Shown one piece after another: positions 9,002 to 46,075 of a stretch of 47,054 bases of DNA (its first letter is position 1; the number at the start of each line of letters is the position of its first letter). Below the pieces are notes generated by a model. The model worked only from the letters and a program-made list of their open reading frames with translations, was not told where the DNA came from and did no database searches. Position numbers and translations under genes: made by a program. Source of the DNA: a virus; the IMG/VR virus record IMGVR_UViG_3300050821_002087, positions 1 to 47,054 of that record; one strand, given 5' to 3'.

Positions 9002-9076
9002 GAGTTTGACTCAAGAAATAGGTAACGCCAGGACGAGAGTGTCCAGAGGCCTATAATATCGTCTATTACAGGCTGA

Positions 9077-9101
9077 CCTTCCAGTTGAGTAACCGGAAAG
9101 G
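9077..9101 (-). other. Stem-loop in the leader upstream of the scaffold gene
   Basis: On the - strand CCTTTCCGGTT and AACTGGAAGG pair around loop ACTC with one bulged T. It sits in the 108-nt gap before the scaffold start. No U-tract follows, so an RNA processing or stability site for the capsid mRNA is more likely than a terminator. Confidence 0.4.
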
Positions 9102-9109
9102 TTTTAGAA

Positions 9110-14433: not shown

Positions 14434-15959
14434 TGTACCGTAATCGGCGACGGACTGGTTATAGTTATCACCTTACTGGTAGTGCCTGATTTAATGGTAA
14501 CCGTAGCCTTGTAAACAGTTGGTGTAGGCGTTGCCGTTGGCGTAGGAGTAGCAGTAGGTGTTGGTGTTGGGGTAGGAGTGGAAGTAGGAGTCGGTATAGG
14601 GGTTGGAGTAGGCGTAGGACTTGGACCACCACCAGTACCTGATACAGCATACTGAGCGTGCAAAGGATGAGGATAAGTATAAGGTGCCCAAGTAGGATGT
14701 GCCACATTAAGGTAATAATCCCTGCCTTGCTGTAGATATGTAGAGATTACCTGTCCATTATTGCAATTGTCCGGAAGATAGGTCTGGGTTTGTATATAGC
14801 CAGGATCAGTAACCTCTGTTCCAGTGTTATTCCAGACATAGATAGGCTCTAGGATTGCACCAATTCCATCTGCACCAAATTCACCTGGAGAAGATCCTCC
14901 GACAAGTCGATTGGCGTTTGTGTCGTCTCCGTTGCCCCAAGTTGCCGAGCTGTTAGCTGACCAGCCCCATCCTGTTTGACGTGGTGCTGGATAAGCTAGA
15001 GGGCAAAATGTTCCTCCTACTCCATCGTTCATTCCACGAGTGACACTAAAGACATTTAACTGAAAGCCACATTTATAAGGAATATGATCAACTGCGTTTC
15101 CGGTTATAACTCCAGTTCCACCTCGGCATTCAAACCAGTAATTGAGGTTCATTGGGTTATTGGCCGAAACAGTAAAGGTGTTGTTGTAAATCTCCCAATG
15201 CCGGACTCCATAGATACTCGTCTCTTGCCCATGGCTACTTAGAGCAGTATCCTGCATCGTGTTGTAGCGCCAGACAACCCTGGAGTTATCATCGTAATTG
15301 CAAATATTCTCTGCATTGTAGAACTTGCAATTCTCAACGTAGGAATTACTTAACCCAGTTGTATCCCGAACTCCTAGAGTATCACTAGTATTCCATCCAG
15401 AATACCCATATTTCTGTGCCCTAAACTGTATTCCACCTGCACCAGTTTTGCCACTACCTGTAAAGCTGGAATTCCAGATAATGATTCCATTATCATTACA
15501 GTTGAGTGAATACTCATAGACTCCATTCTGATCGAACGAGCAATCATGAACCAATACAGTATAGCTGCCCGTACTGGCTCTATCCACAGACATAATGAAT
15601 GCCTGTCCTCCTGCGTTGTTGGCTATCTGGATAAAATTGAGCCAGTAGATATTTACGTTGCCACCAGTTGAGCCAGTTACGTTTATCATGGCACTGCTGC
15701 CATTATTGTTTTGAATCGTAACTCCAGTAGCGTCTGCTCCAGCTAATGTGATTGCATTAGTGATGTTCAGATTACCAGTCCATGAATAAGTTCCATCAGG
15801 GATCACTACCGTGACTGTTCCATTGTCAGGAGCTGCAGAGCAGGCAGCTTGTACATCAGCTTGTGAACCATCCGTTAGGTATGTGTTACCCGATACAGTG
15901 TATGAATATCCAGCCGCTGCGAACAGCATCGATAAGGACAATAAAATAAATTTCTTCAT
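14430..15959 (-). CDS. Exported right-handed beta-helix protein with Pro-Thr linker
   Basis: 509 residues. A Sec signal peptide (MKKFILLSLSMLFAAAGYSY) is followed by a pectate-lyase-superfamily-like beta-helix: repeated Asn/Gly-rich coils such as NIYWLNFIQIANNAGGQAF, VLVHDCSFDQNGVYEYS and VENCKFYNAENICNYDDNSR. A Pro-Thr linker and a short beta C-terminus (KATVTIKSGTTSKVIT) follow. A signal peptide means secretion or surface display by the infected or lysogenic cell, which is unusual for a virion depolymerase. The architecture resembles bacterial cell-surface proteins. It could be a moron that alters the host surface or digests polysaccharide. The enzyme type is not assigned. Confidence 0.7.
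   Translation of the reverse strand: MKKFILLSLSMLFAAAGYSYTVSGNTYLTDGSQADVQAACSAAPDNGTVTVVIPDGTYSWTGNLNITNAITLAGADATGVTIQNNNGSSAMINVTGSTGGNVNIYWLNFIQIANNAGGQAFIMSVDRASTGSYTVLVHDCSFDQNGVYEYSLNCNDNGIIIWNSSFTGSGKTGAGGIQFRAQKYGYSGWNTSDTLGVRDTTGLSNSYVENCKFYNAENICNYDDNSRVVWRYNTMQDTALSSHGQETSIYGVRHWEIYNNTFTVSANNPMNLNYWFECRGGTGVITGNAVDHIPYKCGFQLNVFSVTRGMNDGVGGTFCPLAYPAPRQTGWGWSANSSATWGNGDDTNANRLVGGSSPGEFGADGIGAILEPIYVWNNTGTEVTDPGYIQTQTYLPDNCNNGQVISTYLQQGRDYYLNVAHPTWAPYTYPHPLHAQYAVSGTGGGPSPTPTPTPIPTPTSTPTPTPTPTATPTPTATPTPTVYKATVTIKSGTTSKVITITSPSPITVQ
14517..14622 (-). repeat. Degenerate hexanucleotide repeat encoding a Pro-Thr linker
   Basis: About 100 nt of CCN ACN repeats, with occasional Ile, Ser and Ala codons, encode alternating Pro-Thr in the beta-helix protein. 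Such arrays change length by slippage and act as extended linkers in secreted proteins. Confidence 0.85.
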
Positions 15960-29478: not shown

Positions 29479-29798
29479 CAACAAAAACAGAAAAGACATT
29501 TTGGGTTAAGATTTATATGAGTGGACCAATTGAGGCTGCCAAGCAGGTATGCAGGGCTGTATGTCACGATGAAGGTCTGTGTGTTACTATTGATCCAACA
29601 CATTTCATTTATACAGGAGGAGAAGAGGCAGGGTTCGTGGTTGGCTTAATCAATTATCCCAGGTTTCCAAAAATGGATGATGAGATTATGGATACTGCCA
29701 AGTATCTAGTCGAAGAATTATTGCTCTCCACTCATCAACATTCAGCCTTAATTATGACTCCCGATATTACCGAGTGGACAACTTCTCGCGCTCAATGA
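29475..29798 (+). CDS. Hypothetical early protein
   Basis: 107 residues, alpha/beta. KTFWVKIYMSGPIEAAKQVC, DEGLCVTIDPTHFIYTGGEE and EAGFVVGLINYPRFP suggest a ferredoxin-like fold. ATGA overlaps at both ends place it between primase-helicase and PP-loop protein. Short phage proteins of this pattern are common; function unknown. Confidence 0.6.
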   Translation: MTTKTEKTFWVKIYMSGPIEAAKQVCRAVCHDEGLCVTIDPTHFIYTGGEEAGFVVGLINYPRFPKMDDEIMDTAKYLVEELLLSTHQHSALIMTPDITEWTTSRAQ

Positions 29799-30607
29799 GC
29801 GCCATCAATGTAATAAGTTTAGGGGCAGGAGTCCAAAGCTCGACCATGGCCCTGCTGGCTGCTCATGGGGAGATTGAGCCAATGCCAATTGCTGCCGTTT
29901 TTGCTGATACTCAGGGAGAGCCCCAGAGCGTTTATAATTGGCTGGATTGGCTGGAACCTCAATTGCCCTTCCCCGTGATAAGAGTAAGCAAGGGAAACCT
30001 AGCCGAGGAGGCCTTGACGATGCGAACCTCCAAGGAAGGTAAGATGTACACTAGATCTCTTGTGCCAGCCTTCATAAAAAACCCAGACGGCACCGGAGGA
30101 ATAATGCAGAGGACATGCACCTATGACTTTAAGGTGATGATGTTAATATCAGCATCTAAGAAGTTGGCAAAACAGCATTCCTCCTCACAGGTTATTCAGT
30201 GGATTGGAATCAGTCTTGACGAGGCGCATCGGATGAAGCCCAGCAGGGAGAAGCTGATAGAGCATCGATATCCTTTGATTGATCTCAGAAAGAATCGACA
30301 TGATTGCCTGAGATGGATGGAAGCAAATGGATATGCCAAGCCACCTAAATCAGCCTGCGTTTACTGTCCTTACCACTCTGATAGAGAATGGAGAAGGCTT
30401 AAAATTGAGGAGCCAGAAGAATTCCAAAAAGCGGTTGACTTTGACAAAGATTACAGGGCGATCAAGGCACAGACCGATAATATTAGGGGAATACCTTATC
30501 TGCATTCTTCAATGCAGCCATTAGATGAGGTTGATTTCTCAAATGATGAGGATAACGGCCAGCAGGTACTGTTTGGGAATGAATGTGAAGGCCTTTGTGG
30601 GGTATGA
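29795..30607 (+). CDS. PAPS-reductase-like PP-loop protein
   Basis: 270 residues from the ATGA start. ISLGAGVQSSTMALLAAHGE holds the PP-loop (Ser8-Ser16) of N-type ATP pyrophosphatases, followed by AAVFADTQGEPQSVYNWLDW. Cys motifs: QRTCTYDFK, SACVYCPYHSD and C-terminal ECEGLCGV. Phages often carry such PAPS-reductase/sulfurtransferase-like genes; proposed roles include sulfur transfer and nucleic-acid modification, none proven here. Because this phage also has a thioamide-forming YcaO-TfuA pair, a sulfur-delivery role is worth testing. Confidence 0.75.
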   Translation: MSAINVISLGAGVQSSTMALLAAHGEIEPMPIAAVFADTQGEPQSVYNWLDWLEPQLPFPVIRVSKGNLAEEALTMRTSKEGKMYTRSLVPAFIKNPDGTGGIMQRTCTYDFKVMMLISASKKLAKQHSSSQVIQWIGISLDEAHRMKPSREKLIEHRYPLIDLRKNRHDCLRWMEANGYAKPPKSACVYCPYHSDREWRRLKIEEPEEFQKAVDFDKDYRAIKAQTDNIRGIPYLHSSMQPLDEVDFSNDEDNGQQVLFGNECEGLCGV

Positions 30608-32261: not shown

Positions 32262-32465
32262 ATGACCCAAATAATTGGATTTATAATCACAATGGTCTGC
32301 ATCTCCTTATTCTGGAGATGGATGGGATATTTAAAGACTCAATCTGAGATCAAGAAGGAAGAGAGGCTTGATAGACTGCGATCCCAGGCATTCGACCCGA
32401 ATCTGATTGATCCGATGAATCCTAGGGCAGATGAGCTAAGGGAGATTGCTAGAAGGTTGCACTGA
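32262..32465 (+). CDS. Small membrane-anchored protein
   Basis: 67 residues: MTQIIGFIITMVCISLFWRW is a membrane helix, then a charged coiled coil (KTQSEIKKEERLDRLRSQAF). It lies alone on the + strand between int and the end of the late block, overlapping the latter by 30 nt tail to tail. A lysogenic moron, for example superinfection exclusion, is possible. Confidence 0.5.
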   Translation: MTQIIGFIITMVCISLFWRWMGYLKTQSEIKKEERLDRLRSQAFDPNLIDPMNPRADELREIARRLH

Positions 32466-35400
32466 AGGATTGGAGAGATCCTCTCCTGTAAGAAGGGTTC
32501 CTTTTTTTCCAAAAATATTTGCAGCCTCTATTCTTCCAACGGTTCTTCCCTTATTTGTAGTGAAGAGATTGGAATCTGAAAATCTTCCATTGTATCCAGC
32601 GTCCCTGGCGTTTTGCTCTGCCAGAAAATGAGTTGGGCCAGTATATATTTGACCATTTTCTGCCTTCACCGCAGCTGAGGATACCCTTTCCGGCACATCA
32701 GAAGATAATGGATTGTAATTCCTATTTGCCAAGTCATAATCAGCTTGGCTGCGAAAGGGCTGAATGGATCCCTGCCAGTTGACATTTGCCATTCGGTCCA
32801 GCCTAAAGGACTTAATAAAAGGCTTATCCTTGGCCGCTCCTGTTCCAGACAAGGGATTGCTTGACTGGTTGACCTTATTGGCTTTCAACCCTAGAAGCAT
32901 ATTGATCTTATCCCTTTTAGCCTCTCCAAGTCCATTGGATGCCCCAGGATCACCTTTGCTTAAATTGGTAAAGTATTGGTCCACGTCCCTGGCAAAGGAG
33001 CTTATATTGCTCCATGTTCCTTTGATGTCAGGACGATCCCTGATCATAGAATAGTTCTTCAGGATCTGGGAGAGATCAGCAGTCTTTGTCAGGATATTTT
33101 CATTCTTAAGTACCTGCATCTGATAGGGTATTGCCTCCCTAAACTCGTATGGGAAGGAGCCATATCTGCCAAAGTTGGTAGCCTTATAGTAACCAAAGGC
33201 CAGGATGCCGCCTTGTTGATTGGGATCTGCCAGACCCCTGTTGATTGAGTGAACCAGCTCCCTGTAATGAGGGCTAGCATTAACGTGATCAAGGGCGTCA
33301 TTCAGAAGCTGTTCTGGAAATGACCTAGCCTCATAGGCCTGAGATTCAGGATTGAAACTGATTCCATTCTGTTGTAGCCACTGAGGAGATTCCTTAGACA
33401 GGGAATCATGGATGAAAGTGGATAGGGCCCTTGCTTCCTGATCTCTCTGGCCATTACTCTTTAGGCCAGTGATATTCCCCTGATCGTCTACATTTATGGC
33501 AGCTGATCCCCTGAGCTTCTTTGCCAGGATAGTGGGGTCAGACTGTACTTCAGCCTTAGTGATCATTCCTGGTCCCTTGACATCGTTAGGGTTGACCTTC
33601 CAGCCATTCTTAAGCTTGTAATATCCTTTGACTATATTGGATAGAGTATCATTCTGTCCAAGCTTACCTGAGAATAAGCCAGTCCCGACTACTTGCCCCG
33701 ATCTATTGAAGGTATATCCAAGCTTGCCAAGGAGTTCCTGAGCAGCTGAAGATGTCCACAATTCTGGTTTAAACGCCCCAGTAGATAGATGTGATCCAGA
33801 CATCAAGTAATCTACTCCATGCTCAGCATACAGCTCTTGGGCAAACTCTTGATCAGAGATATTGGGATTCTTGCCCAGGCCGGCCAACTTATCAGTATAA
33901 CCTTGCTTCAGGTCTGCAAACTCAGGAGTAAGCTGATATTGGCCATTTGATCCCTTAATGGGATTTCCCTGAGGATCCAATGCTGTATAGGCTCCAACCT
34001 TACCTGTATCAGCATTTCCCAATACAGCATCATAGACTTTCTGGAATTGTCCAGATCTAGCCATATAATGCTGCACCTCATGGGCTAGCATTGGCGCCAA
34101 TGGATTCTGGCCAGATGCGTTGATATTGGCTACAGATTTTCCAGCAGAGAGATCTACCTCATGGAATCCAGATTCTCCTCCTGGCTTATTGTAGAAATTG
34201 ATTCCTACGTCAGGATGGGCAGCACTTATTTGGGACAGCTTAATTTGATCAGGAAGACTTAATTGATTAAAGTCAGACTGTTGGGATGGCAGAAGCTTAT
34301 TCTGTTTGAACCTGGAAAGATCTCCATAGGAAGCCCTTAAGGATTCAGCAGGATCATTGAACTTTCTCCACTGACCCATGCCGGCACCTGCCAATCCATA
34401 TATTCCACCAAAGGCTGCTCCTTGAATGGATGACTGAATAGGATTTAAAGGATTAGACATTCCTCCCAGGATTGCTCCAGTAACCGCTCCCTTCGCCACT
34501 GCTCCTCCAGCCTTAGCGACATCTCCCAGAGCATATATGGCAGGAGTATCCAGCCATGAGGCTATCTTACCTGTTGCGCTGTCACTACCGAGTTCTTGGG
34601 ATACTCTCCTAAAGAATGGAAGACTAGATTCCCCGGCTAGCAGCTCTTTGCCCATTACCCTTAGGGGAGCAACTAAGGCATCACCAATAGTTGGGGCATT
34701 TTGCATGATTCCCTTAATGACTGGTCCAGCTGGTCCTGTATGGCTGTACAGAGTCCAATCAACCATTTTATCAACAAGCTTTTCAGCAGCTCCCTGAATA
34801 GCTGGATTTCCTCCAGCGATCTTAGCAGCTATTTTTCCAGGGAAATCAGCAACTCCTTTGGCCAGATTGGCAACTCCGTCTAGTCCCGATGAAAGAATCT
34901 TGGCCCCAGTGCCGGCAACTGTGCTGGAATTACTTGGAGTAGCAGTCTTGGCAAAATGGGATATTACTGTATTAGCGTCCAAATTGGCTGACTGATAAGC
35001 CTGTTGAGCAGCACTGAAATTGGCTGTTGCAGCATCGTGAGCATCCTTGGCTGCAAGGAATTCTGGCTGAGACTTGGCAGTAGTCATTGCCAACTTAGCA
35101 TCATTGACTGCCTGGCTTGCCGCAGTCAGAGTAGATTCAGCCTTGGTGACATTTCCCAGAGCATCAACAGTAGTCCCGACAAATGTAGGCTTGATTAATC
35201 CTGCCACTGCTCCAGCAGCATCAAGTACAGGTCCAGGGGCTAAGGTTTGAAATATTAAAGAAGCACCAGCGGCAGCCTCGGGATTAACAACACTGCTCTT
35301 GATATCATTAGCCAATTCCTTTTGGCCAACAGCACTATATCCGGCAGCAGCAGCATTAACAAAGTTATTGGCTATGCCAGCCCTCTGCATTGCCCTTTGC

Positions 35401-36701
35401 TGCAATAGGAAGGCAGCATGAGCATCTTGGGCATCCTTAGCAACTGGATCAATCTTCTCGTTGATTCCAATGTCCTCTGTCCCTCTGGTAAGGGTATCCA
35501 TTGCCCCCCTGGCAAAGTTGACCATCCCGTCTCCGAAATCCACCAGTCCCTTTAATCCATCAGCAGTCCCTGTAGCATTGGTGGCAATATTGTTGGCCAG
35601 ATTCTGCGTAAGTGTTACGCTGTTATTCTGACCGGTAAGCTTGTTCCATAGGTATTGAGCGCCATTATCAATGGTTGAGCTTAGATTATTCTCAAAGGCA
35701 TCTAGGCTATCAGATGCTCCTTTGATCATTCCAGGTATGGATTGGACTCCTTCTGTAACCTGCTGCTGTAAGGATTTCCCTTTCTGAGGATCCCATACCA
35801 TGGACTTCCAAACAGACTCATTATTCCATATGAACTGAGGATCCTTGGCCAGAGTATAGGCCATTTGATCCTCTGGGGATATCTGCTTAGGATCTCCTCC
35901 ATTCTGCAGGTAATAATCCATTATATCTGCCTGATCAGGAGTGGCTACCCTTAGACCTAATGAATAAGGATTATGGGCTTGAGCCCATCTCTGCATTGCC
36001 TGGCTTACATAATAAGATCTGGTATTGCCTCCAGTGCCTATTGGTGCATTGGGATCAGCATTATTCCCCTGAATAGGGATGGACTTTCCATTTTGATCTA
36101 CAATGGAATAGGTAAGACGAGAATTGTCCTTGATCCCAAGGGCATCCGCTGCCCCCTTGGTGGTATCAATAGCGTTTCCGGTCCATGCCGCTGGACCAAC
36201 GTCTACTATAGGGCCAGTGACTTTCTTGCCATTTGGACCTGTTACTTGGACTTTGTATTTACCTTGGGAGATAGCCGCTTGAGTATTCGGATCCCAACGG
36301 TTGCCTATTGTCGAATTGACAACTGAGATTGGCAGAGAGAAGCCTACTAGGTTAGGATTCCTAGTGTCATAAGGCTTCCCAGTTGATGGATCAGTGAAGA
36401 ATCCCTGACCATTGTCTTGAGCGTCAGTAGATCCATCATAGTTTAACCCAAAAACAGTAGACCTGCCCGTTGCTGACGTTATAAGGCCATTAGACGGCTT
36501 TTGATTGGTCTTGGCTGTATTGGTATTTCCAGACTGAGAAACGCTGTCCTGGGGCGATTGTGGAGCTTTATTTTGAGTTGCAGCTATAACTCTAGGGTCA
36601 TCAAGCCTGCCAGTATCTAATCTAAGGGCTGCTTGAGCCTGAGCTAGAGTTGTACTTAGATCATCAGTTCCACCGGGAACATCTCCACTGCCTGCTGCCA
36701 T
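32436..36701 (-). CDS. Giant ejection-type protein with double-psi barrel and zincin motif
   Basis: 1421 residues, last gene of the late block. An N-terminal disordered region (1-75), then a double-psi beta-barrel-like domain (about 77-205; GRSTVFGLNYDG, DNGQGFFTDPSTGKPYD) shared with the 45596-46075 protein, long helical Ala-rich regions (about 300-770), a metallopeptidase motif LAHEVQHYMARSG (His874, Glu875, His878) with a downstream Glu-rich helix (QEFAQELYAEHGV), and a C-terminal domain with GQIYTGPTHFLAEQNARDAG. Giant late proteins with peptidoglycan-active and protease domains in podoviruses are internal virion proteins ejected into the cell envelope. They resemble polyvalent proteins of mobile elements. 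Confidence 0.75.
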   Translation of the reverse strand: MAAGSGDVPGGTDDLSTTLAQAQAALRLDTGRLDDPRVIAATQNKAPQSPQDSVSQSGNTNTAKTNQKPSNGLITSATGRSTVFGLNYDGSTDAQDNGQGFFTDPSTGKPYDTRNPNLVGFSLPISVVNSTIGNRWDPNTQAAISQGKYKVQVTGPNGKKVTGPIVDVGPAAWTGNAIDTTKGAADALGIKDNSRLTYSIVDQNGKSIPIQGNNADPNAPIGTGGNTRSYYVSQAMQRWAQAHNPYSLGLRVATPDQADIMDYYLQNGGDPKQISPEDQMAYTLAKDPQFIWNNESVWKSMVWDPQKGKSLQQQVTEGVQSIPGMIKGASDSLDAFENNLSSTIDNGAQYLWNKLTGQNNSVTLTQNLANNIATNATGTADGLKGLVDFGDGMVNFARGAMDTLTRGTEDIGINEKIDPVAKDAQDAHAAFLLQQRAMQRAGIANNFVNAAAAGYSAVGQKELANDIKSSVVNPEAAAGASLIFQTLAPGPVLDAAGAVAGLIKPTFVGTTVDALGNVTKAESTLTAASQAVNDAKLAMTTAKSQPEFLAAKDAHDAATANFSAAQQAYQSANLDANTVISHFAKTATPSNSSTVAGTGAKILSSGLDGVANLAKGVADFPGKIAAKIAGGNPAIQGAAEKLVDKMVDWTLYSHTGPAGPVIKGIMQNAPTIGDALVAPLRVMGKELLAGESSLPFFRRVSQELGSDSATGKIASWLDTPAIYALGDVAKAGGAVAKGAVTGAILGGMSNPLNPIQSSIQGAAFGGIYGLAGAGMGQWRKFNDPAESLRASYGDLSRFKQNKLLPSQQSDFNQLSLPDQIKLSQISAAHPDVGINFYNKPGGESGFHEVDLSAGKSVANINASGQNPLAPMLAHEVQHYMARSGQFQKVYDAVLGNADTGKVGAYTALDPQGNPIKGSNGQYQLTPEFADLKQGYTDKLAGLGKNPNISDQEFAQELYAEHGVDYLMSGSHLSTGAFKPELWTSSAAQELLGKLGYTFNRSGQVVGTGLFSGKLGQNDTLSNIVKGYYKLKNGWKVNPNDVKGPGMITKAEVQSDPTILAKKLRGSAAINVDDQGNITGLKSNGQRDQEARALSTFIHDSLSKESPQWLQQNGISFNPESQAYEARSFPEQLLNDALDHVNASPHYRELVHSINRGLADPNQQGGILAFGYYKATNFGRYGSFPYEFREAIPYQMQVLKNENILTKTADLSQILKNYSMIRDRPDIKGTWSNISSFARDVDQYFTNLSKGDPGASNGLGEAKRDKINMLLGLKANKVNQSSNPLSGTGAAKDKPFIKSFRLDRMANVNWQGSIQPFRSQADYDLANRNYNPLSSDVPERVSSAAVKAENGQIYTGPTHFLAEQNARDAGYNGRFSDSNLFTTNKGRTVGRIEAANIFGKKGTLLTGEDLSNPSVQPSSNLP

Positions 36702-36704
36702 AGA

Positions 36705-37745
36705 TTAAGGATTACCTTGTGCCACAGGAGTGTTTACCCCTGGATTCTGTTGAAGCATAGCTTGTCTGGCTTGCATGAAACTTAGAACAGCTTGCTTGGT
36801 CTGGGGAGTGGAATCACCTAGAGATGCAGTAGTATTGGATCCCTGAACAGTGGCTTGAGGAGGAGAAGCTGCAGGAGTTGCCGAAGGCGAAGCAGGCGTA
36901 TTAGCTGCCGGCTGATTGAATGCATCATACATCTGACCCACGGACAACTGTCTCTTGGATAGATCTGCAAATTGATCCTGAGTCTCTTTGGTCTGATTAG
37001 CTACCTGATAATTCCCGAATCCAAATTGATGCAGCAGGGAAGCCTTTCCATTAAGGGCCAATGTCTCAAGATTGTAAAACTTAGCATTAGCGTCTGGAAG
37101 AGTGTCCTTATCTCCTGGTAAAATATCCTCTATTTTGGCTTGTACTCCTGGCCTGGCATCTGCTCCCTGAAGATAGCCAATCGTCTGGGCAACCGAGGGA
37201 GTTAGAGATTCCCTCAGAGCCTCAAACTGCTTAACAGATCCATTGGTTTGATTGGAATGAACCCAATCCCCAAGCATTGACTTGAAGTTGCCTCCAAATA
37301 TTGCTCCCGATTTGTTCAGGGCATTATTATAAGAACTCTGCAATAAATGAAGATTAGATATGGCAGAATCATATCTTGCTAGATCTTTCTGAACATCAGT
37401 TGGCAATGGATCAGGCTGAGCAGTCTTGATTAAGGCATCAACAGCTTTACCAAGAATCAGGCTCTTCTGGCTGTTAGCAAAAGCGGTCCCATCACTTTGG
37501 GCCTTTTTCCAATCATCAACACTGTAATATTTCCCTTGAGCAGCCGCAGCATTAGCCTGATCATTGGCTGCTTTTGTTCCTACATCAGTAGGGTCATAGG
37601 CTTTTACCTGATCATACAGCTGCTGAATAACGCTGGTATTCTGTGTATTTTGCAGTCCACTAGGGTTATTAGTGAACGGTTGATTCTGCTTCTGTTGATT
37701 GGAATACCAAGCATTAAGCTGAGCTTGATAATCTGGATCAGCCAT
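36705..37745 (-). CDS. Internal virion/ejection-type protein
   Basis: 346 residues, Gln/Asn/Ala-rich and helical (YQAQLNAWYSNQQKQNQPFT, AAAQGKYYSVDDWKKAQSDG, AISNLHLLQSSYNNALNKS), with a Pro/Ala/Ser-rich low-complexity end. Short gap to the giant protein (3 nt) and one-base overlap with the gene upstream. Composition and place match podoviral ejection proteins. Confidence 0.6.
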   Translation of the reverse strand: MADPDYQAQLNAWYSNQQKQNQPFTNNPSGLQNTQNTSVIQQLYDQVKAYDPTDVGTKAANDQANAAAAQGKYYSVDDWKKAQSDGTAFANSQKSLILGKAVDALIKTAQPDPLPTDVQKDLARYDSAISNLHLLQSSYNNALNKSGAIFGGNFKSMLGDWVHSNQTNGSVKQFEALRESLTPSVAQTIGYLQGADARPGVQAKIEDILPGDKDTLPDANAKFYNLETLALNGKASLLHQFGFGNYQVANQTKETQDQFADLSKRQLSVGQMYDAFNQPAANTPASPSATPAASPPQATVQGSNTTASLGDSTPQTKQAVLSFMQARQAMLQQNPGVNTPVAQGNP

Positions 37746-38329
37746 TATTGGTAAGCCGGTTTAGTGAAATCAGGAGCACCGTTCACTATTGGATACTTAG
37801 CCATTTTACCCGTTGCTGGATCCTTAAGGACAGAAGTAAATACTGCTGGACCTTGAGTTGGAGCAGGAGTCTGTGGAACGGTAGAGCTGGTATCCGTTCC
37901 CTCTTTTTGGACATTACCAGTGTTGGTTGTAGTTCCTGGCAAATTCTGATTTGGAGGGGTAGGACCATTCGGTCCAGCTGGATAATGACCCAATATTGAA
38001 GGATCAAATATAGGTGCTCCAGCTTGTCTCATTGCAGCGTATTGTCCGGCAAGCTTAGACTGTTCTTGCATCTTGGTATTCATGGCTCCCCCATACATGC
38101 CAATCATTTGTTCCTTAGCTCCAATTCCTTTTCCTAGAACTGATTGGTAAACATCTTGAGGCAAAGCCCCATTCTTAGCCAATACATCCAAGGTATCATT
38201 GGCAGTCTTTTGTCTAGCAATAAGACCTCCAACTGAACCTGCCAACTTGTCAAAGTTATCTCCCGCCCTACTTAAGGCATCATACAAATATCCGCCCCCC
38301 AAATTGGGGACACCTAAATCCCAGCTCAT
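37745..38329 (-). CDS. Internal virion/ejection-type protein
   Basis: 194 residues. The N-terminal half is helical (YLYDALSRAGDNFDKLAGSV, VLAKNGALPQDVYQSVLGKG). The second half is Pro/Thr/Asn-rich low complexity. The start MSWDLGVPNLGGGYLYDAL is Gly-rich. It directly follows TfuA with no gap. Probably an ejection protein; also a possible substrate of the YcaO-TfuA pair by position only. Confidence 0.55.
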   Translation of the reverse strand: MSWDLGVPNLGGGYLYDALSRAGDNFDKLAGSVGGLIARQKTANDTLDVLAKNGALPQDVYQSVLGKGIGAKEQMIGMYGGAMNTKMQEQSKLAGQYAAMRQAGAPIFDPSILGHYPAGPNGPTPPNQNLPGTTTNTGNVQKEGTDTSSTVPQTPAPTQGPAVFTSVLKDPATGKMAKYPIVNGAPDFTKPAYQ

Positions 38330-39538
38330 TTATTCTTTTTCTCTTTCTATAGCTATTAACAATTCAGGAAGGGTTGAAAAGCCTGCTTCTCTGATAAAAT
38401 CTTCTAGTGAACCATCGGTTCTAACATCTCCGACACTGATTGGCTTAAGACTATCCAATACCATTTTCTCTTCTGATAATCTGGATGCACTTTTGCCCAG
38501 CTTACTGTATCTCCCGAAGGTTCTAAGGTGATCCAGCATTGGCTTGGTTGTTCTCCTGCAGGTTCGAGTCGATAATAAGGCACCTTGAAGCTTTCTGATT
38601 CTAGCATTGTCGGTTAAAAACTCTTTAAATGAATCTTTATTTAGATGATTGTCATCAATCCATTTAAGGAGTTCTTCCTTATCCTTAATCTCTAGTCTCT
38701 TCATTAGCCGGGATAATTCTATTGCTAGATCATCCCTGGAGACTCTGACATCAATGTAATTGCAGGCTAGCAAAGCTATGTTTCTATTGCTGGAATGCCA
38801 GATCTCTTCCTGGATATTCTCCAGACTTAAGGCTGCATGAGATTCAATATGTTGAATGGATACCCCATCAACCTTCCTGTCTCTCTCATGCTGAGCCCTA
38901 AACAGTGTGGTTAAAGCTTCTGGACCAGGTCTAGTCTTATCAGTCTTTAACGATCTGAAGTTTCTTAAGAGTCCTTCAGCATCAATAGCCTTCTGGTCAA
39001 CAATCTTAAAAGGCTTAATCCCATTCTTCTTAAACAGCCCCTTAAGGGATTCCATCCATCTGCTTGAGTAATGGATGCCCCCAGAAAGCTCTAGGATTCG
39101 ATTTAAGACATCTTTATCCTTAACCGAGGCTCTTATATTAACCAAGGGTACAGAAACCCTAGAATATCCTTCTGAGTAGCTTACGGCTACTTCTGAGTCA
39201 TCGTCTATGATTCCATCTCTATACCATTCATAGATCTGACCATGTCCAACCATTCCACATCTCTCCAGATCTGCTGCTCTGAGAGCCCCCATTGAACTAG
39301 ATCCATAAACCTTTATTCCTTTATGAAGAGCATAGACTATCTCCTTAACCCATACAGAGAAACATTGATGAAATTCTCCGTCTATAAGGATCAAATGAGT
39401 CGGATGCTCATTCTCTATATCCGAGATTATATCCGATTGCTTGGCCGGAGGCCTATAGACTAAATCAGGCTCAATATCCCTAGCCTTCTCTAGGCTTAAG
39501 CTTGGCCCGAGGTATACAATGACTTTTTCTTTAAGCAT
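38330..39538 (-). CDS. tfuA: TfuA-like protein, partner of YcaO
   Basis: 402 residues. The TfuA core (about 1-130) is clear: VIVYLGPSLSLEKA (Gly11-Ser15), VYRPPAKQSDI (29-33), LILIDGEFHQCFSVWVKEI (Asp53-Phe56), KVYGSSSMGALRAADLERCG (79-88) and GQIYEWYRDGIIDDDSEVAV. TfuA proteins act with YcaO to turn a backbone amide into a thioamide, probably by handling sulfur or activating the substrate. This one has about 270 extra residues, mostly charged helices (ELSRLMKRLEIKDKEELLKW, FKEFLTDNARIRKLQGALL), longer than many stand-alone TfuAs. Its start lies inside the 3' end of ycaO (43-nt overlap), so translation is coupled. Confidence 0.88.
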   Translation of the reverse strand: MLKEKVIVYLGPSLSLEKARDIEPDLVYRPPAKQSDIISDIENEHPTHLILIDGEFHQCFSVWVKEIVYALHKGIKVYGSSSMGALRAADLERCGMVGHGQIYEWYRDGIIDDDSEVAVSYSEGYSRVSVPLVNIRASVKDKDVLNRILELSGGIHYSSRWMESLKGLFKKNGIKPFKIVDQKAIDAEGLLRNFRSLKTDKTRPGPEALTTLFRAQHERDRKVDGVSIQHIESHAALSLENIQEEIWHSSNRNIALLACNYIDVRVSRDDLAIELSRLMKRLEIKDKEELLKWIDDNHLNKDSFKEFLTDNARIRKLQGALLSTRTCRRTTKPMLDHLRTFGRYSKLGKSASRLSEEKMVLDSLKPISVGDVRTDGSLEDFIREAGFSTLPELLIAIEREKE

Positions 39539-40662
39539 CTAGGAGATGGTGACCAAATTCCATCCATTCTTATGGATTCCATTCCAGGGACAAACACTTT
39601 AACAACTGGGATAGCATTGTCACCAACTTCAATGGTCTTTAAATGTTTTACGTAAATCTCTTTAAACCCTGCATCTATAACAGACTTAGAAATAGACTTC
39701 ATCTCATCTGAAGTTTCCATTTCCTTTGGAGACACGTATTCATTTAAGTCCTCTGGCATTCCATTCATCAAATCATCTATTTTCTTTGGTGACGTATTCC
39801 TAGCCACAAGAAATGACCTTCTGAATAGATCATCCCTAGATCCCGATATGAATACACATCTAGACTGATATGCTTCCAGAACAGCCCTCTCCATGGATTT
39901 GACTGGATCTATATGGCATCCATGGCCGGCATAGACTCCTGCTTCATCTCCATACACTACACATCCAAATACTGGGATCCCAATATCCTCTTGAGTACAC
40001 GAGAACAGCCCAACCCTTAATCCTGACTTGGTTGCCTTATTCTTCAATTCCTGAATACTGTCAGGGATATTTACAACCCTTTTATTTGACTCGCAGTATT
40101 CCGATATTGTTCTGGCATCCCTTTCTATGATCTCATATATTCCAGAGCAAATAGCATCAGGAATGCTACATCCGCTTGCAACTCCATTGCTGGAATTCTG
40201 AAAGTGAGCTATAAACTTGTTTCCCCTTGGGACTAGCCAGCAAATCTCAGACGGTACTAATCTATTAGATCCAGAGACTATCTCCGTTGCCACTTCCCAT
40301 TCAATAACCATATCCTGATGGAATATGCTATGGGATATCAGCGGAAGACTGAAACAATCAATCTTGGGATATCCAAGCTGGGATACCGATGATTCTATGG
40401 TTTCCCCACTTGGACATTCGCCAGCATAATATTCAGCAGACTCCAGGATAGCTCCAGCCCTAGCCATTCTGGGGTTCAGTGATTTTCCCGAATTGACCGA
40501 TATATTAACAGATAACGGCCTTACTGATGAATAGGTATGACTACCTATAATATCTAATCCAGTAACATCTGAAACCCTTGAAATTCCCATTTCCCATAAC
40601 TGGGACTTTGTAAGGGAATTTATTTTATCTGAGAAAATCTCTCTTTCCTCTGATCTAACCAT
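39496..40662 (-). CDS. ycaO: YcaO-domain ATP-dependent cyclodehydratase/thioamidase
   Basis: 388 residues, a stand-alone YcaO domain. ATP/Mg-binding signatures are present: ARAGAILESAEYYAGE (Glu74, Glu77), GVASGCSIPDAICSGIYEII then ERDA (Glu177, Glu180), MERAVLEAYQSRCVFISGSR (Glu263, Gln266) and Arg276-Asp-Asp. No Pro-rich C-terminus of the azoline-forming type is seen; it ends CLKKKSLYTSGQA. YcaO proteins phosphorylate a backbone amide oxygen; with TfuA the known product is a thioamide. It starts at the last base of an ejection-protein gene (TAATG) and overlaps tfuA, so it is co-expressed with late virion genes. Codon and base use look like the neighbours. Confidence 0.92.
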   Translation of the reverse strand: MVRSEEREIFSDKINSLTKSQLWEMGISRVSDVTGLDIIGSHTYSSVRPLSVNISVNSGKSLNPRMARAGAILESAEYYAGECPSGETIESSVSQLGYPKIDCFSLPLISHSIFHQDMVIEWEVATEIVSGSNRLVPSEICWLVPRGNKFIAHFQNSSNGVASGCSIPDAICSGIYEIIERDARTISEYCESNKRVVNIPDSIQELKNKATKSGLRVGLFSCTQEDIGIPVFGCVVYGDEAGVYAGHGCHIDPVKSMERAVLEAYQSRCVFISGSRDDLFRRSFLVARNTSPKKIDDLMNGMPEDLNEYVSPKEMETSDEMKSISKSVIDAGFKEIYVKHLKTIEVGDNAIPVVKVFVPGMESIRMDGIWSPSPRCLKKKSLYTSGQA

Positions 40663-41780
40663 TAATTGGCTGTGGCTGCAGCAGTGGAAAGAGTTGCCGT
40701 TCCAATACCTAAGGAAATGGCTCCCTGCATGTAGGCTGCGTTTTGCTGGTTTTGAAGCTGAGCATTAGCAGCCTGGGCAGCAAACTGAGATTGAGCATTG
40801 AACTGGCCATTGCTGTTAGCTGTTCCAATCAATGAATCAATGAATGTAGGAAGGGAATTGTTATTCTTGAACATGCTCGCCAACATACCCTGCTCATTCC
40901 AAAAATTGTTTGGATTAGCATAAGCCTGGGTTGCTCCAAGAATATCGCTGGTTAACCCCATCTGAGCCTGGTTTTGGATATTAGCTAAATTGGTTCCTAT
41001 TTGCCCCTCCTGGGATCCTATCTGTCCATATGTTGATCCAATCTGTCCAAGCCCAGATCCAACCTGACCAAGTGTTCCGGCAGTGTTGGTTAGACTGTTC
41101 ATGGTCTGGTTGGCAAATCCTTCTCTCTGAGCCAATCTCTGCTGAGAATATTGATCTCTATTCAATAGATCCGTAGCAGCAGCAGGGTTAGAATTAAACA
41201 GTCCATTCTGGCTGAATGTTGCAGCAGTCTGCTGGTCAACCATGTTCAGCTCTTGTGGACTCAGGGTTCCACCTAATGCCAATTGACTCTGTGCCAATTG
41301 TCCCATTTGCCCCCCCAGACCCGTAGGAGAAAGCATTCCCTCTAGACTGCCACCAGCAGAATTAAGTACTCCCGTAGCATCCTTTAAGGTGGCATCAGCG
41401 GAATTGAAATTATTTAAGGCTCCCTGTATAGCAGGGGCTGAATATTGCAGGGCAGGATTTGCCGCAGTAACAGCGGAAGCAATATTGCCCTGTTGTCCCA
41501 GAATATCTGAACTCATTCCGGGAAGAGTTGATCCAAATTGTCCTACATTAAATGCATTGCCGGCACCGGCAGCATTGCCAGCACCAGTGTTAATTCCTCC
41601 ATTTAGCATCTGCATAAATGCATTAACGTTCTGGCCAGAGATCTGATTGCTCAGTCCTGCCAGAGAGGGCTCCATGAATTGTTCAGCCCCCAGGATATTG
41701 GTGTTATTTCCAACAATCTGGCTTATGTCCTGGCCAATAGTAACTGGAGCAGGAGCCTGAGGAGCCTTGCCACCACCCAT
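40662..41780 (-). CDS. Internal virion/ejection-type protein
   Basis: 372 residues, very rich in Gln, Asn, Gly and Ala, with an MGGGKAPQAPAPVTIGQD start seen in podoviral internal proteins, many Gly-Gln/Ile-Gly repeats (GQVGSGLGQIGSTYGQIGSQ) and a C-terminal helical stretch (FAAQAANAQLQNQQNAAYMQ) ending in a hydrophobic segment. Probably a gp14-like ejection protein that forms a channel in the envelope. It has a good Shine-Dalgarno (GGAGGTAA) and overlaps ycaO by one base, so it is the immediate upstream neighbour and a candidate thioamidation target. Confidence 0.65.
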   Translation of the reverse strand: MGGGKAPQAPAPVTIGQDISQIVGNNTNILGAEQFMEPSLAGLSNQISGQNVNAFMQMLNGGINTGAGNAAGAGNAFNVGQFGSTLPGMSSDILGQQGNIASAVTAANPALQYSAPAIQGALNNFNSADATLKDATGVLNSAGGSLEGMLSPTGLGGQMGQLAQSQLALGGTLSPQELNMVDQQTAATFSQNGLFNSNPAAATDLLNRDQYSQQRLAQREGFANQTMNSLTNTAGTLGQVGSGLGQIGSTYGQIGSQEGQIGTNLANIQNQAQMGLTSDILGATQAYANPNNFWNEQGMLASMFKNNNSLPTFIDSLIGTANSNGQFNAQSQFAAQAANAQLQNQQNAAYMQGAISLGIGTATLSTAAATAN

Positions 41781-42112
41781 TATTTGTTACCTCCAAGTCT
41801 CATGAGAAAAGGATTATTAGAAAAGGTTTGTGGATTAACTTGATTGCCTTGATTTGTGCTTCCTATAAAATTAGAAGGGTTAAATCCAGAGAATGGATTG
41901 TTTGAACCATTCCAATTAGGAAAATTATAGGGATTGGGCTGCTGCGGAGGTTTAGGAGATGGTCCAGGAGTGGTTTGATTGACTATCCCTGGAGCCAAGG
42001 CATTAGAGGCAGTATTAACAGGAGATGGATTCACCCCAGGAATAGGGCTCATAGCCATCCCTGTATTTGAATTTACCCCAGGATTTCCCATTGCTGCACT
42101 ACCTCCACCCAT
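41780..42112 (-). CDS. Low-complexity Gly/Pro/Asn-rich late protein
   Basis: 110 residues, start MGGGSAAMGNPGVNSNTG, dominated by Asn, Pro and Gly (PKPPQQPNPYNFPNWNGSNN), with a short end NPFLMRLGGNK. No folded domain visible. Shares the MGGG start with the next gene. Overlaps it by one base. Probably a virion-internal or assembly protein; composition makes it another conceivable YcaO-TfuA substrate. Confidence 0.55.
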   Translation of the reverse strand: MGGGSAAMGNPGVNSNTGMAMSPIPGVNPSPVNTASNALAPGIVNQTTPGPSPKPPQQPNPYNFPNWNGSNNPFSGFNPSNFIGSTNQGNQVNPQTFSNNPFLMRLGGNK

Positions 42113-42462
42113 TATTTCCCTTTTCTTTTGAACTTAGCGAAATCATAAATCTTAACTTTCTTAGATCCTCTTCTGTTGAATGCCAGATACTTGGCCGGGA
42201 TCACTTCATCCATTATTTCTGAGACTGAATAAGTCTTGTCTCCAACTAGAATATAGACAAACCAACAGTTTCTATTCTTAGTCCCGAAATAGCACTTGAA
42301 TCCATCTGACCAACAGCGTTCACCAACCAGGACAAAGTTCTCTTTGACGATTACAGATCCAACATTAAGACAATGCCAGATGACATCAGATACAGATGTT
42401 TCCGGTTCCCACTTCTTATAAAGCTCAATAGCCTTCTTTAGATGTGGGTTATTAGTCTGCAC
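42112..42462 (-). CDS. Hypothetical basic protein
   Basis: 116 residues, alpha/beta with several Trp and Cys (SDVIWHCLNVGSVIVKENFV, RCWSDGFKCYFGTKNRNCWF) and a basic C-terminus (RRGSKKVKIYDFAKFKRKGK). Unlike its structural neighbours in composition, so possibly a non-virion accessory gene. I do not recognise it. Confidence 0.5.
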   Translation of the reverse strand: MQTNNPHLKKAIELYKKWEPETSVSDVIWHCLNVGSVIVKENFVLVGERCWSDGFKCYFGTKNRNCWFVYILVGDKTYSVSEIMDEVIPAKYLAFNRRGSKKVKIYDFAKFKRKGK

Positions 42463-43932
42463 TTAAACTGTCCGACGGATCCAGTCCCAGCTAGTATTTA
42501 CAAAGGATCCATTACCGCAGAACACTGACAGGAATACTCCTTGAATAGGATCTCCACCAAAGGAAGGACCACTGGTATAGCTCTCGCTATAAACCTGTAC
42601 AAAGTTTATTCCATCAGCAGAGAAGGCTACGTAAAGATGGGTTCCATTATATCCAACCCTGAAATATTGCATCCCATAGAATGGTCCATTATTTGAGCCA
42701 ATTGAATTCGAGGTTCCTCCAGAAGCAGTGGGATCTCCCTTGCTTACAGTAAAGTTAATTCCATTGGTTGAGTTAACATACAGCCCGGCACAAAGGGACT
42801 TGGTGTTACCTGTATTACAAATACCGAAGTTGCCCTGGAATAGAAGAGCATTAGCAAACCCTCCCACGGTCATCTTGGCAGTAAATTCAAATGGAGATCC
42901 AGAGAAGCTGGAAATATTTTGGTTGAACAGTATGAAGGAGGCAGCAGTTGCGGCTATATTAGCATTCAGATAACTTCCACCTAGGCTATAGTTTCCAGCT
43001 GTACCTCCCGATGAAACTGTCCAAATATCCGTGTTCAGATTGGGACCATCAAATTCGTCATCCCACTGAGTTGCAACCAACGGAGGGGCATCAGGATGAA
43101 ACCAGGAGCTTGAAGCAGCCAAAATATTGCCAGGATTAATAATATCCAAAACCAAACTTGGATCACTCTGATATGGCAACGTAGTGTCACCCTGAACAAG
43201 CTGCGACTCTCCAAACCTAAATCCGCAAGTTGAGCCGGCTAATGCAGTCAAGGCAGCATTAGGAATATCAATCTGAAACCTCAAGCCATTCGAGGCAGAT
43301 GTTGGAATGTTGAAAGTGGCTGTCATCTGAGTCCATACGGATTGAGGACAGACCTGCAGCAAATTGGTTGAGACCTGGGCTGCTGTTGACCAAGCGTCTG
43401 CTGACGTAGGAGCCCATAGGGATAGACTTGGAGTAAAGCTGGCTGATTGAGTGTTCTTTATGTAAATAGAGAACGTCATTGTCGAGCCTTTAAGAGCACC
43501 GGCAATGTCTGACGCCATATTCTGATAGAATCCAAGAGAGGCAAAGGAAGCACTATCTACATCAATCTCAGCAGCGTAAACACTGGTAGTAGTAGCCCCA
43601 TCAGTTTGACAGGTAATAGTTACATTCTTAGAGTTGCCTGCTGAAGTATTTAATGGGGTAGCAACTGCTGACCAATATCTAGGATTGGTGACAGTTAATG
43701 CTGGCGCTACGCCACTCGCTGCCGTAATTCCCGACACTCCTATGGGTGCAAGAAAATCAGATTTATTAAAGTTACTGTTCCTTAGGAAATTGACAGTGGA
43801 GTTTGGAATATTAAGTCCCGAAGTAATCGCCACTGTTGGCTGAGCAATTGCCCTACAAATAGCTGGCGTAAGCTCTTCGTTGTCTCCTAATAGATATCCA
43901 GGAGTAACCGTTACTGTAATAGGAGTTGCCAT
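42463..43932 (-). CDS. Tail-fibre-like protein with carbohydrate-binding and LamG-like domains
   Basis: 489 residues, no signal peptide. The middle (about 55-255) resembles CBM4/9-type jelly rolls (MTFSIYIKNTQSASFTPSLS, SVWTQMTATFNIP). The C-terminal 200 residues look like a concanavalin/GH16-like sandwich (WDDEFDGPNLNTDIWTVSSG, FRVGYNGTHLYVAFSADGIN). Probably binds a host glycan. One-base overlap with the nozzle gene upstream. Confidence 0.65.
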   Translation of the reverse strand: MATPITVTVTPGYLLGDNEELTPAICRAIAQPTVAITSGLNIPNSTVNFLRNSNFNKSDFLAPIGVSGITAASGVAPALTVTNPRYWSAVATPLNTSAGNSKNVTITCQTDGATTTSVYAAEIDVDSASFASLGFYQNMASDIAGALKGSTMTFSIYIKNTQSASFTPSLSLWAPTSADAWSTAAQVSTNLLQVCPQSVWTQMTATFNIPTSASNGLRFQIDIPNAALTALAGSTCGFRFGESQLVQGDTTLPYQSDPSLVLDIINPGNILAASSSWFHPDAPPLVATQWDDEFDGPNLNTDIWTVSSGGTAGNYSLGGSYLNANIAATAASFILFNQNISSFSGSPFEFTAKMTVGGFANALLFQGNFGICNTGNTKSLCAGLYVNSTNGINFTVSKGDPTASGGTSNSIGSNNGPFYGMQYFRVGYNGTHLYVAFSADGINFVQVYSESYTSGPSFGGDPIQGVFLSVFCGNGSFVNTSWDWIRRTV

Positions 43933-45596
43933 TAAATTCTAGTTCTTGAAAAGCTGTATCTCTTAGCCATCTCTGCAGTCATAGCCTCTATCTCAATCGT
44001 TCCCTGAGTATTGGTGATTCCAAATTGGACATATCTGCCAGACTGCCTTAAGGGGAATGATTCTGAAAATGTTTGGGTATTGCTAAGCTGAATTCCTTTT
44101 TGCAAATACACTGGGGGGATGACCGTATAGTCCTGTCTCATCAGGGTATTAAAGTCATTGTTAACGTTGGTAGTATCGTAATCAGGCTTTCCAAAGCTGT
44201 AATACTTGGATTGGCTTCTAGTCCTGTTGTCTATAATCGTTGTTGCTGGACCTACTCCCTCAATTTGAGCGGTAACGCTATAGCAGGGATTAAGAGTGGA
44301 TAGCCTTATGTCCCCTCTTTTAAACGCAAACTCATTCTCAGGACTGTCACAAGTAAATCCCCTTGAAAGTATATGGAAGTTAATTGGGTTAGCCGATGCC
44401 CCACTATTCCCAAGGATGTCTCTATCACCCTCCTCCATCAGCATCACGACTCCCATAACCCTATCCACTGCCATTAATCTCTTTTCCCCTGCATAGTTAG
44501 CTATCCAGAGATCATCAATGCAAAGTCCATTTGGATAGCTGTCAAAAGATTCCCAGGCTTGCAATGTGATGTTGTAGACATACATCATGTTGTTCCTGGT
44601 GCTATTTCCTACAGGCAAAGCAAAGTAAGCTCTATCTCTCCAGACTTGAGCTGTAGCCCCAGATACTGCCAACCAATTGATCTGCTTCATATTGGGCAGG
44701 ATTGGTTCCGATGCCGGCAGTGGTTGTACCTGGTAAGCCTGGTCAAAGATCTGGGACAGATTATATATTCCAGATCTATCCAGAAACATTACTTCTTGTC
44801 CAAACTGAACGACTGCCTTCCTTGCAGCCAATCCTATCCTTCCGCTTACCTGAGTCATTGTCAGGGAACTCAAATCCCCCGTGACATTGCTAAACAGGAA
44901 TATGGAATGGTCCTTGAATGCTATGACAAATGTCTGCTGCCAAGGGAACAACCTCACCAGCTGATCAGCTTGGCCAGTGTTTACAGTGAAATTAGCAAAC
45001 GAATTATCGTACTCCGTATAGTCCCCAATATTGGAGACTGCTATCTGATCTCTAGTAAATGGGACTATAATCCTGTTGGCTATCGTCTCTCCCGTAACGG
45101 CATTAGGAATCGTCGTAAATGGCGTTGTAGGAGCCGGGAAAGCTCCAAAGGTCTGATTGGTGCCATTCCAAACCAAAGGGGCTACAGTCGGACCCTGGAA
45201 CATTATAAGCTGATTGAAGGCCTGTAGGAACTCTACATTAGTACTGATAGTAGTTCCTGATGGCAAGGCTACGAATTGTGGGCTATACCCATTAGCTACG
45301 AGCCAAACTCCATTCGTTACTGCTATACAGATCCATTCAACCAGAAAGGGGTCACTGAACTTACCTACTCCCCATATTTTAGGATAGTTTACTGCATTCC
45401 ATCCAGATGGAAGCATTATTCCCCATCTGGTCTGAACATCCCCATTTACTATCCTTGCGTTCCTAGAATCACAAAGGAATCCCTGATTGACTACCGAGGG
45501 ATCAGGAGTCTTGGTGTCTACTCCTAGAAAGTAGTTATCGGCCGCAACTTCAGTGGTTTCTTCCTGAAGCCAATAGTTGTAGTCGTACCTAGGCAC
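43932..45596 (-). CDS. P22 gp10-like tail nozzle/stabilisation protein
   Basis: 554 residues. FLCDSRNARIVNGDVQTRWG near the N-terminus, many short beta repeats (WLVANGYSPQFVAL, QVWRDRAYFALPVGNSTRN, MYVYNITLQAWESFDSYPNG) and an end EMAKRYSFSRTRI fit the beta-propeller nozzle family of podoviruses, which closes the portal channel and anchors the tail tip. Family assignment is by pattern; position among tail genes agrees. Confidence 0.7.
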   Translation of the reverse strand: MPRYDYNYWLQEETTEVAADNYFLGVDTKTPDPSVVNQGFLCDSRNARIVNGDVQTRWGIMLPSGWNAVNYPKIWGVGKFSDPFLVEWICIAVTNGVWLVANGYSPQFVALPSGTTISTNVEFLQAFNQLIMFQGPTVAPLVWNGTNQTFGAFPAPTTPFTTIPNAVTGETIANRIIVPFTRDQIAVSNIGDYTEYDNSFANFTVNTGQADQLVRLFPWQQTFVIAFKDHSIFLFSNVTGDLSSLTMTQVSGRIGLAARKAVVQFGQEVMFLDRSGIYNLSQIFDQAYQVQPLPASEPILPNMKQINWLAVSGATAQVWRDRAYFALPVGNSTRNNMMYVYNITLQAWESFDSYPNGLCIDDLWIANYAGEKRLMAVDRVMGVVMLMEEGDRDILGNSGASANPINFHILSRGFTCDSPENEFAFKRGDIRLSTLNPCYSVTAQIEGVGPATTIIDNRTRSQSKYYSFGKPDYDTTNVNNDFNTLMRQDYTVIPPVYLQKGIQLSNTQTFSESFPLRQSGRYVQFGITNTQGTIEIEAMTAEMAKRYSFSRTRI

Positions 45597-46075
45597 TAGA
45601 TATGTTGCTGTCCTGCATTAGGACCAGGAGATCCACCACAGATCTCCCAGCCTTCAATAGGAATAGGATTGTTAGCCTTGTCCCGAATCTCTAGGTCAAC
45701 CAATGCATATCCCTTAGTATCCAGGATATGAGCGGGAGAATAGCAGAGATCAATGATGTGCTTAGTCCAAACTGACGGACCAATATCGACAATCTTGCAT
45801 CTGACAGACCTGTTATTCCTTGCAGTAATCCAGACAGTGAATTCCTGATTGCTGATTGCCTGCCTGACATCAGGATGACTATGCAAACCAATGCTCTTAT
45901 CGATTACAGGGATAGGCAAGGAACAGCCCATCAAGGTCTTGTCTGTAGTATCGTAGGGCTTATTGGTACCAGGATCCGTAAAGAACCCTAATCCATTATC
46001 CCCACGATCAGCTTTGCCATCATAGTCTAACCCGAAGATGGTTGCTATTCCCTGAACCCTGTAAACGTTACTCAT
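45596..46075 (-). CDS. Double-psi beta-barrel (RlpA-like) protein
   Basis: 159 residues. GIATIFGLDYDGKADRGDNG followed by GFFTDPGTNKPYDTTDK, then RCKIVDIGPSVWTKHIIDLC, the typical DG-rich and DIGPS motifs of double-psi barrels related to RlpA. The same domain opens the 1421-residue ejection protein. RlpA-like domains bind or cleave peptidoglycan; catalytic competence is not shown. No signal peptide. ATGA overlap with the holin-like gene. Confidence 0.65.
   Translation of the reverse strand: MSNVYRVQGIATIFGLDYDGKADRGDNGLGFFTDPGTNKPYDTTDKTLMGCSLPIPVIDKSIGLHSHPDVRQAISNQEFTVWITARNNRSVRCKIVDIGPSVWTKHIIDLCYSPAHILDTKGYALVDLEIRDKANNPIPIEGWEICGGSPGPNAGQQHI

Follow-up and report, generated by a model that had tools for sequence, protein, structure and literature searches.

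Introduction

To our knowledge, thioamides are known in only two characterized proteins. In methanogens, a glycine of McrA is thioamidated by YcaO together with TfuA, a precedent for the modification of a whole protein (PMC5589413), and the folded ribosomal protein uL16 is thioamidated by the Escherichia coli YcaO without TfuA (PMC13063428). TfuA-associated YcaOs also thioamidate peptides (PMC8120280). Here we describe a YcaO-TfuA gene pair in a virus, located among the late genes for the putative ejection apparatus of the IMG/VR record IMGVR_UViG_3300050821_002087, whose 47,054 bases are referred to below as the window. In T7-type phages, the genes of the ejection proteins gp14 and gp15 are adjacent in a small operon, followed by gp16 (PMC8954989); gp14 leaves the particle first and forms an outer-membrane pore, and the ejection proteins refold strongly (PMC8954989, PMC11784390).

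The analysis led us to propose, with a probability of about 0.5, that the pair is a phage-owned backbone-thioamidation system dedicated to a protein of the phage's ejection apparatus. The enzyme families are known; the constant presence of YcaO-TfuA in a phage ejection module seems not to have been described before. Full-text literature searches retrieved no report of such a system, with a coverage that was thin for subscription journals and preprints and leaves priority uncertain.

Results

An intact YcaO-TfuA pair in the late operon

The two genes were assigned as follows.

39496..40662, minus strand: YcaO enzyme (ATP-dependent backbone amide activation), 388 amino acids (aa), ATG start; assigned from PF02624, the ATP-site residues, the AlphaFold model and a viral clade
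38330..39538, minus strand: TfuA-like partner, 402 aa, comprising a TfuA domain (residues about 5-190) and a helical C-terminal extension; assigned from PF07812 and 6xp8

The YcaO protein matched PF02624 with an E value of 7.6e-54 and 184 bits (cut-off 25.7) over the whole profile (1-325 of 325), and also the NCBIfam YcaO kinase domain (E 5.7e-36). The best NCBIfam matches of the pair were the thioglycine YcaO model and the TfuA model. The closest curated family of YcaO was that of McrA-glycine thioamidation (E 1.4e-41), with scores under the equivalog cut-offs (142.8 against 365 bits for TIGR03266 and 149.1 against 235.2 bits for NF033432). All residues invariant in the alignment were present in the window YcaO (E74, E77, E177, E180, R181, R259, E263, Q266, R268, R276 and D278) and were kept in nearly all bacterial and archaeal rows; among them, the Glu, Gln and Arg residues binding ATP/Mg (E74, E77, E177, E180, R181, E263, Q266 and R268) were kept in viral, bacterial and archaeal rows. 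The viral clade described below showed near-fixed residues that were rare in bacteria, namely Ser to Gly at 70 and Glu to Asp at 169, both beside ATP motifs, as well as Tyr to Trp at 370 near the C-terminus. The AlphaFold model (mean predicted local distance difference test score, pLDDT, 87.7) gave a template modeling (TM) score of 0.81 to the peptide-bound MjYcaO 6peu. Its best structural matches were archaeal YcaO in peptide-bound and ATP-bound forms, and each of the 41 PDB matches at E <= 0.001 was of the YcaO type. The YcaO is intact in family, fold and ATP site, as the initial annotation had read from the DNA when it noted a full-length YcaO with ATP-binding signatures.

The TfuA protein matched PF07812 (E 4.1e-33). 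The Methanosarcina acetivorans TfuA structure 6xp8 matched residues 6-141 by sequence (E 1.8e-27) and the N-terminal half of the predicted fold by structure (E 1.7e-16, TMt 0.81). The C-terminal half of the model was helical and of low confidence, without a known relative.

The YcaO and TfuA genes overlap by 43 nt on the same strand. The start codon of YcaO overlaps the stop codon of the upstream 372-aa gene by 1 nt, and the TfuA gene, ending at 38330, abuts the downstream 194-aa gene, which starts at 38329. The late operon around the pair is gapless, with genes packed end to end, and between 46.8 kb and 32.4 kb the main genes all lie on the minus strand. Both the overlapping TfuA-like gene and the co-directional coupling with late virion genes on either side, as originally noted, were thus borne out. 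The window also encodes an SU10-type major capsid protein, a terminase, an integrase and a primase. Its minus-strand late genes occupy the stretch between 20.6 kb and 0.1 kb and again that between 46.8 kb and 32.4 kb, as would be expected of a single module in a circularly permuted genome; no terminal repeats were found in the 47,054 bases.

Recurrence in a fixed slot

Neither YcaO nor TfuA matched any of 50,697 named phage records, and the YcaO fold had no match at E <= 0.001 among the BFVD viral models. Together with the literature searched, this agrees with the initial statement that no described phage system of this kind was known to the annotator. Single-protein scans of viral contigs with YcaO or the 1421-aa protein found nothing, and profiles were required. 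Profiles built from bacterial relatives detected 17 YcaO loci and 25 TfuA loci in IMG/VR, to which two more loci were added afterwards. Besides the window, about 27 records (four near-identical) held the pair, or YcaO at a contig end, amid virion genes; this recurrence of intact frames places the pair far above chance. The viral TfuA loci were mostly 33-40% identical to the window TfuA over the full length, and among the 80 top loci retained from the scan of genomes, the best bacterial sequence showed 33-34% identity.

The gene order in the carriers was determined by neighbor clustering, profile relabeling and rescue of genes masked by antisense open reading frames (ORFs). In the main lineage the order was the gene families c7, c8, c6, c3 (about 610 aa), c0, c4 (about 135 aa) and c5 (210-576 aa, Gly/Ala/Gln-rich), then YcaO, TfuA and large ejection-type genes of up to 2,000 aa, one of which carries Amidase_2. 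The slot was identical in every carrier spanning it, after the Gly-rich c5 and before the ejection genes, and the pair was kept adjacent. Three sub-lineages (the window, L021/L022 and L024) had other flanking families, in which the upstream gene was again Gly-rich, while the gene downstream of TfuA varied between lineages. A whole-record search located YcaO in 22/22 carriers, in the conserved slot and with open frames; the single TGA counted in L017 lies within a first-look frame longer than the gene itself. The initial annotation had suggested checking whether the pair always sits among ejection genes, which it does in these carriers. It had also named loss of the ATP-binding residues, or sporadic pairs with broken frames, as signs against the idea, and the residues were kept and the frames open.

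Two carriers showed local variation. In L024, the YcaO frame (10001-10924, plus strand) is open but has lost about 65 internal residues, and TfuA is short (195 aa) and lacks the C-terminal extension. In L197, an HNH-endonuclease-like gene (5518-6081, plus strand) is located between the gp14-like gene and YcaO, as expected of a homing element. A host was sought in samples of Acidobacteriota and Verrucomicrobiota genomes, and nothing was found.

Phylogeny, selection and empty slots

The YcaO of the window and 21 other viral YcaOs formed one clade with a support of 100/100, separate from all sampled bacterial and archaeal YcaOs. The YcaO of L023 was a weakly placed sister of this clade in the careful tree; a quick tree had hinted at a separate acquisition in the same slot, which the careful tree did not reproduce. 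L048 and L050 were left out of the clade, as their flanks and tree positions were bacterial-like. Bacterial contamination of IMG/VR was ruled out for the clade by the virion genes found on both sides of the pair in many contigs. Among close relatives, the ratio of nonsynonymous to synonymous substitution rates (dN/dS) was 0.05-0.08 for YcaO and 0.08-0.11 for TfuA, compared with 0.3-0.4 for the next ejection gene c11. The pair is under strong purifying selection.

A whole-record search did not find YcaO in eight records of c3 relatives that are more distant, nor in HMO-2011 or C75C1; judged by its terminase (33%) and its head-closure protein, C75C1 is the named phage closest to the window. Two records bearing c5 without the pair (L092 and L186) had empty slots, in which c5 directly adjoins other genes. 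From its presence in all carriers and its absence from distant relatives, the pair is either a clade-specific addition since retained or an ancestral trait lost outside the clade. Recurrence, fixed slot and selection ruled out a simple cargo gene.

Neighboring late genes

The genes around the pair in the window were assigned as follows.

45596-46075, minus strand: 159-aa protein, sharing a domain with the 1421-aa protein
43932..45596, minus strand: tail nozzle / head-closure protein of 554 aa, corresponding to family c3 (phrog_3287, E 3e-8)
42463..43932, minus strand: 489-aa late structural/carbohydrate-binding-like protein in the place of family c0 (position; weak CBM_4_9 match)
42112..42462, minus strand: late protein of 116 aa at the position of family c4, a small gp13-like protein (position; no significant profile match)
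41780..42112, minus strand: 110-aa small late protein (position; no family match)
40662..41780, minus strand: 372-aa Gly/Ala/Gln/Asn-rich protein, counterpart of c5, T7 gp14-like by position, candidate substrate (composition, slot and weak c5 match)
37745..38329, minus strand: late protein of 194 aa, Gly/Ala/Gln-rich, encoded immediately after TfuA (position and composition)
36705..37745, minus strand: 346-aa late protein, gp15-like by position (position and composition; no family match)
32436..36701, minus strand: ejection protein of 1421 aa, resembling gp16 in size and position (its N-terminal domain also occurs in the 159-aa protein)

This layout (554, 489, 116, 110, 372 aa, YcaO, TfuA, 194, 346 and 1421 aa) equals that of the main lineage, with neighbors diverged past BLAST detection. 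The 554-aa protein and a c3 homologue both matched phrog_3287, a virion structural protein family, and the named-phage matches of the former were annotated as "head closure", "tail tubular protein B" and "phage stabilization protein". The 372-aa protein contains 40% Gly, Ala and Gln, the highest proportion among window proteins over 150 aa. Amidase_2 was present in a relative's counterpart of the 1421-aa protein. When the c3 profile, the c5 profile and the 1421-aa protein were searched against the PDB, no meaningful match was obtained. By order and size, together with composition, these genes resemble those of gp14, gp15 and gp16; the likeness is positional, without a sequence match to the solved T7 proteins.

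Residues 79-212 of the 1421-aa protein (134 residues) and the 159-aa protein of the same phage shared 44% identity; one domain thus serves both as a separate protein and at the head of an ejection protein. In the terminase region, a 509-aa secreted-looking protein (14430-15959, minus strand) has a signal-like N-terminus and a Pro-Thr repeat tail, and resembles host-type exported proteins.

Candidate modification sites and sulfur sources

The c5 proteins of the carriers shared conserved R-x-F-G-x-x-G, N and Y residues. The F-G-L-x-G motif was ruled out as a carrier-specific thioamidation site, since it was kept in the c5 of phages without the pair. The C-terminal tail C-x-A-R-x-x-Y-G of c5 was likewise rejected as a substrate, as it was missing in several carriers and present in HMO-2011, which has no YcaO. 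This tail belongs to a C-terminal domain (C-x-A-R-x-x-Y-G ... W-x-x-F-R-x-W) common to the gp14-like proteins and a hypothetical protein of the marine phage HMO-2011 (L175), where it is located at 9001-9180 within a 2,121-bp gene.

The early region of the window contains a gene for a protein of the 3'-phosphoadenosine 5'-phosphosulfate (PAPS) reductase family (29774-30607, plus strand; phrog_424, E 7e-45). This family was present in only 3/22 other carriers and was ruled out as a dedicated sulfur source. The "complete machine" of the initial annotation is weakened by this, since no dedicated sulfur donor travels with the YcaO-TfuA pair. A separate observation was made on a conjugative Legionella longbeachae plasmid (L003, 353-5029), in which genes for ATP-grasp, MoaD/ThiS, ThiF, YcaO and TfuA are consecutive beside transfer genes, forming a candidate sulfur-carrier-fed thioamidation cluster.

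Discussion

The thioamide chemistry of the pair is predicted from its families, and a virion substrate is suggested by its position. Late in infection, YcaO, with the help of TfuA and ATP, would activate a backbone amide, and sulfide from the host sulfur pool would replace the amide oxygen on a specific residue of a protein from the same operon. The likeliest target would be the small gp14-like protein, rich in Gly, Ala and Gln, that is synthesized immediately ahead of YcaO, followed by the 194- and 346-aa proteins or the large gp16-like protein. By making a local segment more rigid or better protected, the thioamide may help a protein that has to pass the portal, refold and insert in the envelope, much as has been suggested for the stabilization of McrA by thioglycine. 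Given the pore role of gp14 and the strong refolding of ejection proteins, rigidity or protease resistance would be a reasonable, if speculative, benefit.

The fixed coupling of the pair to virion genes argues for a substrate from the same operon, and the gp14-like protein is the first candidate as the sole constant direct neighbor of the pair. Several observations weigh against this proposal. Ejection in general does not need the pair, since distant relatives have a similar module and lack it. The conserved c5 residues were also kept in both homologues from phages that lack the pair, so that nothing in c5 points to a special site. The homology of the window 372-aa protein to c5 is weak (E 0.0013, probability 18% with the c5 profile), no sulfur-transfer gene co-occurred with the pair in the carriers, and the fixed position could also stem from late expression rather than from a virion substrate. 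As c5 has no carrier-specific site, we hold a substrate in the ejection apparatus at even odds, and the gp14-like protein itself as a tentative choice at clearly longer odds.

The best placed of the alternatives, although unlikely, is that the pair modifies a host protein, such as ribosomal uL16 or an envelope or defense protein, late in infection, or early if the enzymes are packaged and ejected. A bacterial YcaO does thioamidate uL16 (PMC13063428), packaging is conceivable for genes lying amid those of packaged and ejected proteins, and the phage protein tested, c5, lacked a carrier-specific site. However, a host target does not require the late-operon position or the unvarying linkage to the same virion genes, and the TfuA-independent E. 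coli YcaO differs in domain layout, with a TM score of only 0.5-0.6. Genes for host takeover usually occupy early or moron positions.

We regard as improbable that the pair produces a thioamidated peptide, serving as a bacteriocin or signal and set free by lysis or from lysogens, in the manner of a cluster for a ribosomally synthesized and post-translationally modified peptide (RiPP). The operon is packed end to end and could not accommodate a precursor, and the flanking genes are virion genes. Neither in the window nor in relatives was a precursor, a transporter, a leader peptidase or any further tailoring enzyme seen next to the pair, so that its neighborhood does not qualify as a thioamidated RiPP cluster, which is marked by a precursor ORF with tailoring and export genes. 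These features make a RiPP unlikely, even though bacterial YcaO-TfuA pairs are often mined as such clusters (PMC8120280) and the window encodes an integrase. Among the three uses offered initially for the pair, a virion protein is favored by the slot, and a peptide product is disfavored.

YcaO enzymes perform several reactions via one mechanism (PMC13063428), and the thioamide is assigned here solely from the partnership with TfuA. Another reaction on a phage protein, such as azoline or amidine formation or other amide activation with TfuA as partner, nevertheless has little probability, since TfuA-associated YcaOs are a recognized thioamidation group (PMC8120280), no E1-like or ocin-ThiF partner was found in the operon, and the pair scored best against the NCBIfam models of thioglycine YcaO and of TfuA. 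Finally, the pair may be a mere passenger, selfish or accidental, that became fixed among the late genes of a single phage lineage and plays no part in the virion. This would fit the absence from distant relatives and the HNH gene in the same slot of L197, but selection, open frames and persistence across lineages whose virion genes diverged past BLAST detection make it very improbable.

If a thioamide on an ejection protein were confirmed, it would offer a direct handle on how such proteins cross the portal, refold and open the cell envelope, and would extend YcaO biology by a viral branch. Because of the fixed slot, only a handful of genes need be considered as sources of the substrate, and the carriers would offer a set of co-evolved enzyme-substrate pairs for studies of protein backbone chemistry. 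That this would be the first virus known to put a backbone thioamide on its own virion protein, the third thioamidated kind after McrA and uL16 and an edit within an ejection machine, falls just short of an even chance.

Comparison with known systems

The methanogen YcaO-TfuA system for McrA (MjYcaO 6pe3/6peu and TfuA 6xp8) belongs to the same families, with usually adjacent genes and the same fold and ATP site, and acts on a whole protein, as proposed for the phage pair. In contrast, the phage YcaO shares about 21% identity with MjYcaO in the structure alignment, and the phage pair is placed in a virion operon, lacks the McrA substrate and in most cases has a long helical TfuA extension. The TfuA-associated YcaOs of thioamidated RiPP clusters and the pairs of YcaO and long TfuA in Azospirillum, Acidobacteria and Actinomycetes are the nearest bacterial sequences and show the same translational coupling, whereas the viral pair has virion genes on its flanks in place of an adjacent precursor, peptidase and transporter, and forms a separate clade (100/100). 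The E. coli YcaO modifying uL16 also acts on a folded protein, but needs no TfuA, has an extra domain and shares 14% identity with the phage YcaO in the structure alignment. The ejection module of T7-type phages (gp12 nozzle, gp14, gp15 and gp16) has an order of nozzle, small proteins, gp14, gp15 and large gp16 that the genes here resemble by position, size and composition, with annotated matches for the nozzle, and the phages described here carry YcaO-TfuA between the gp14-like and gp15-like genes.
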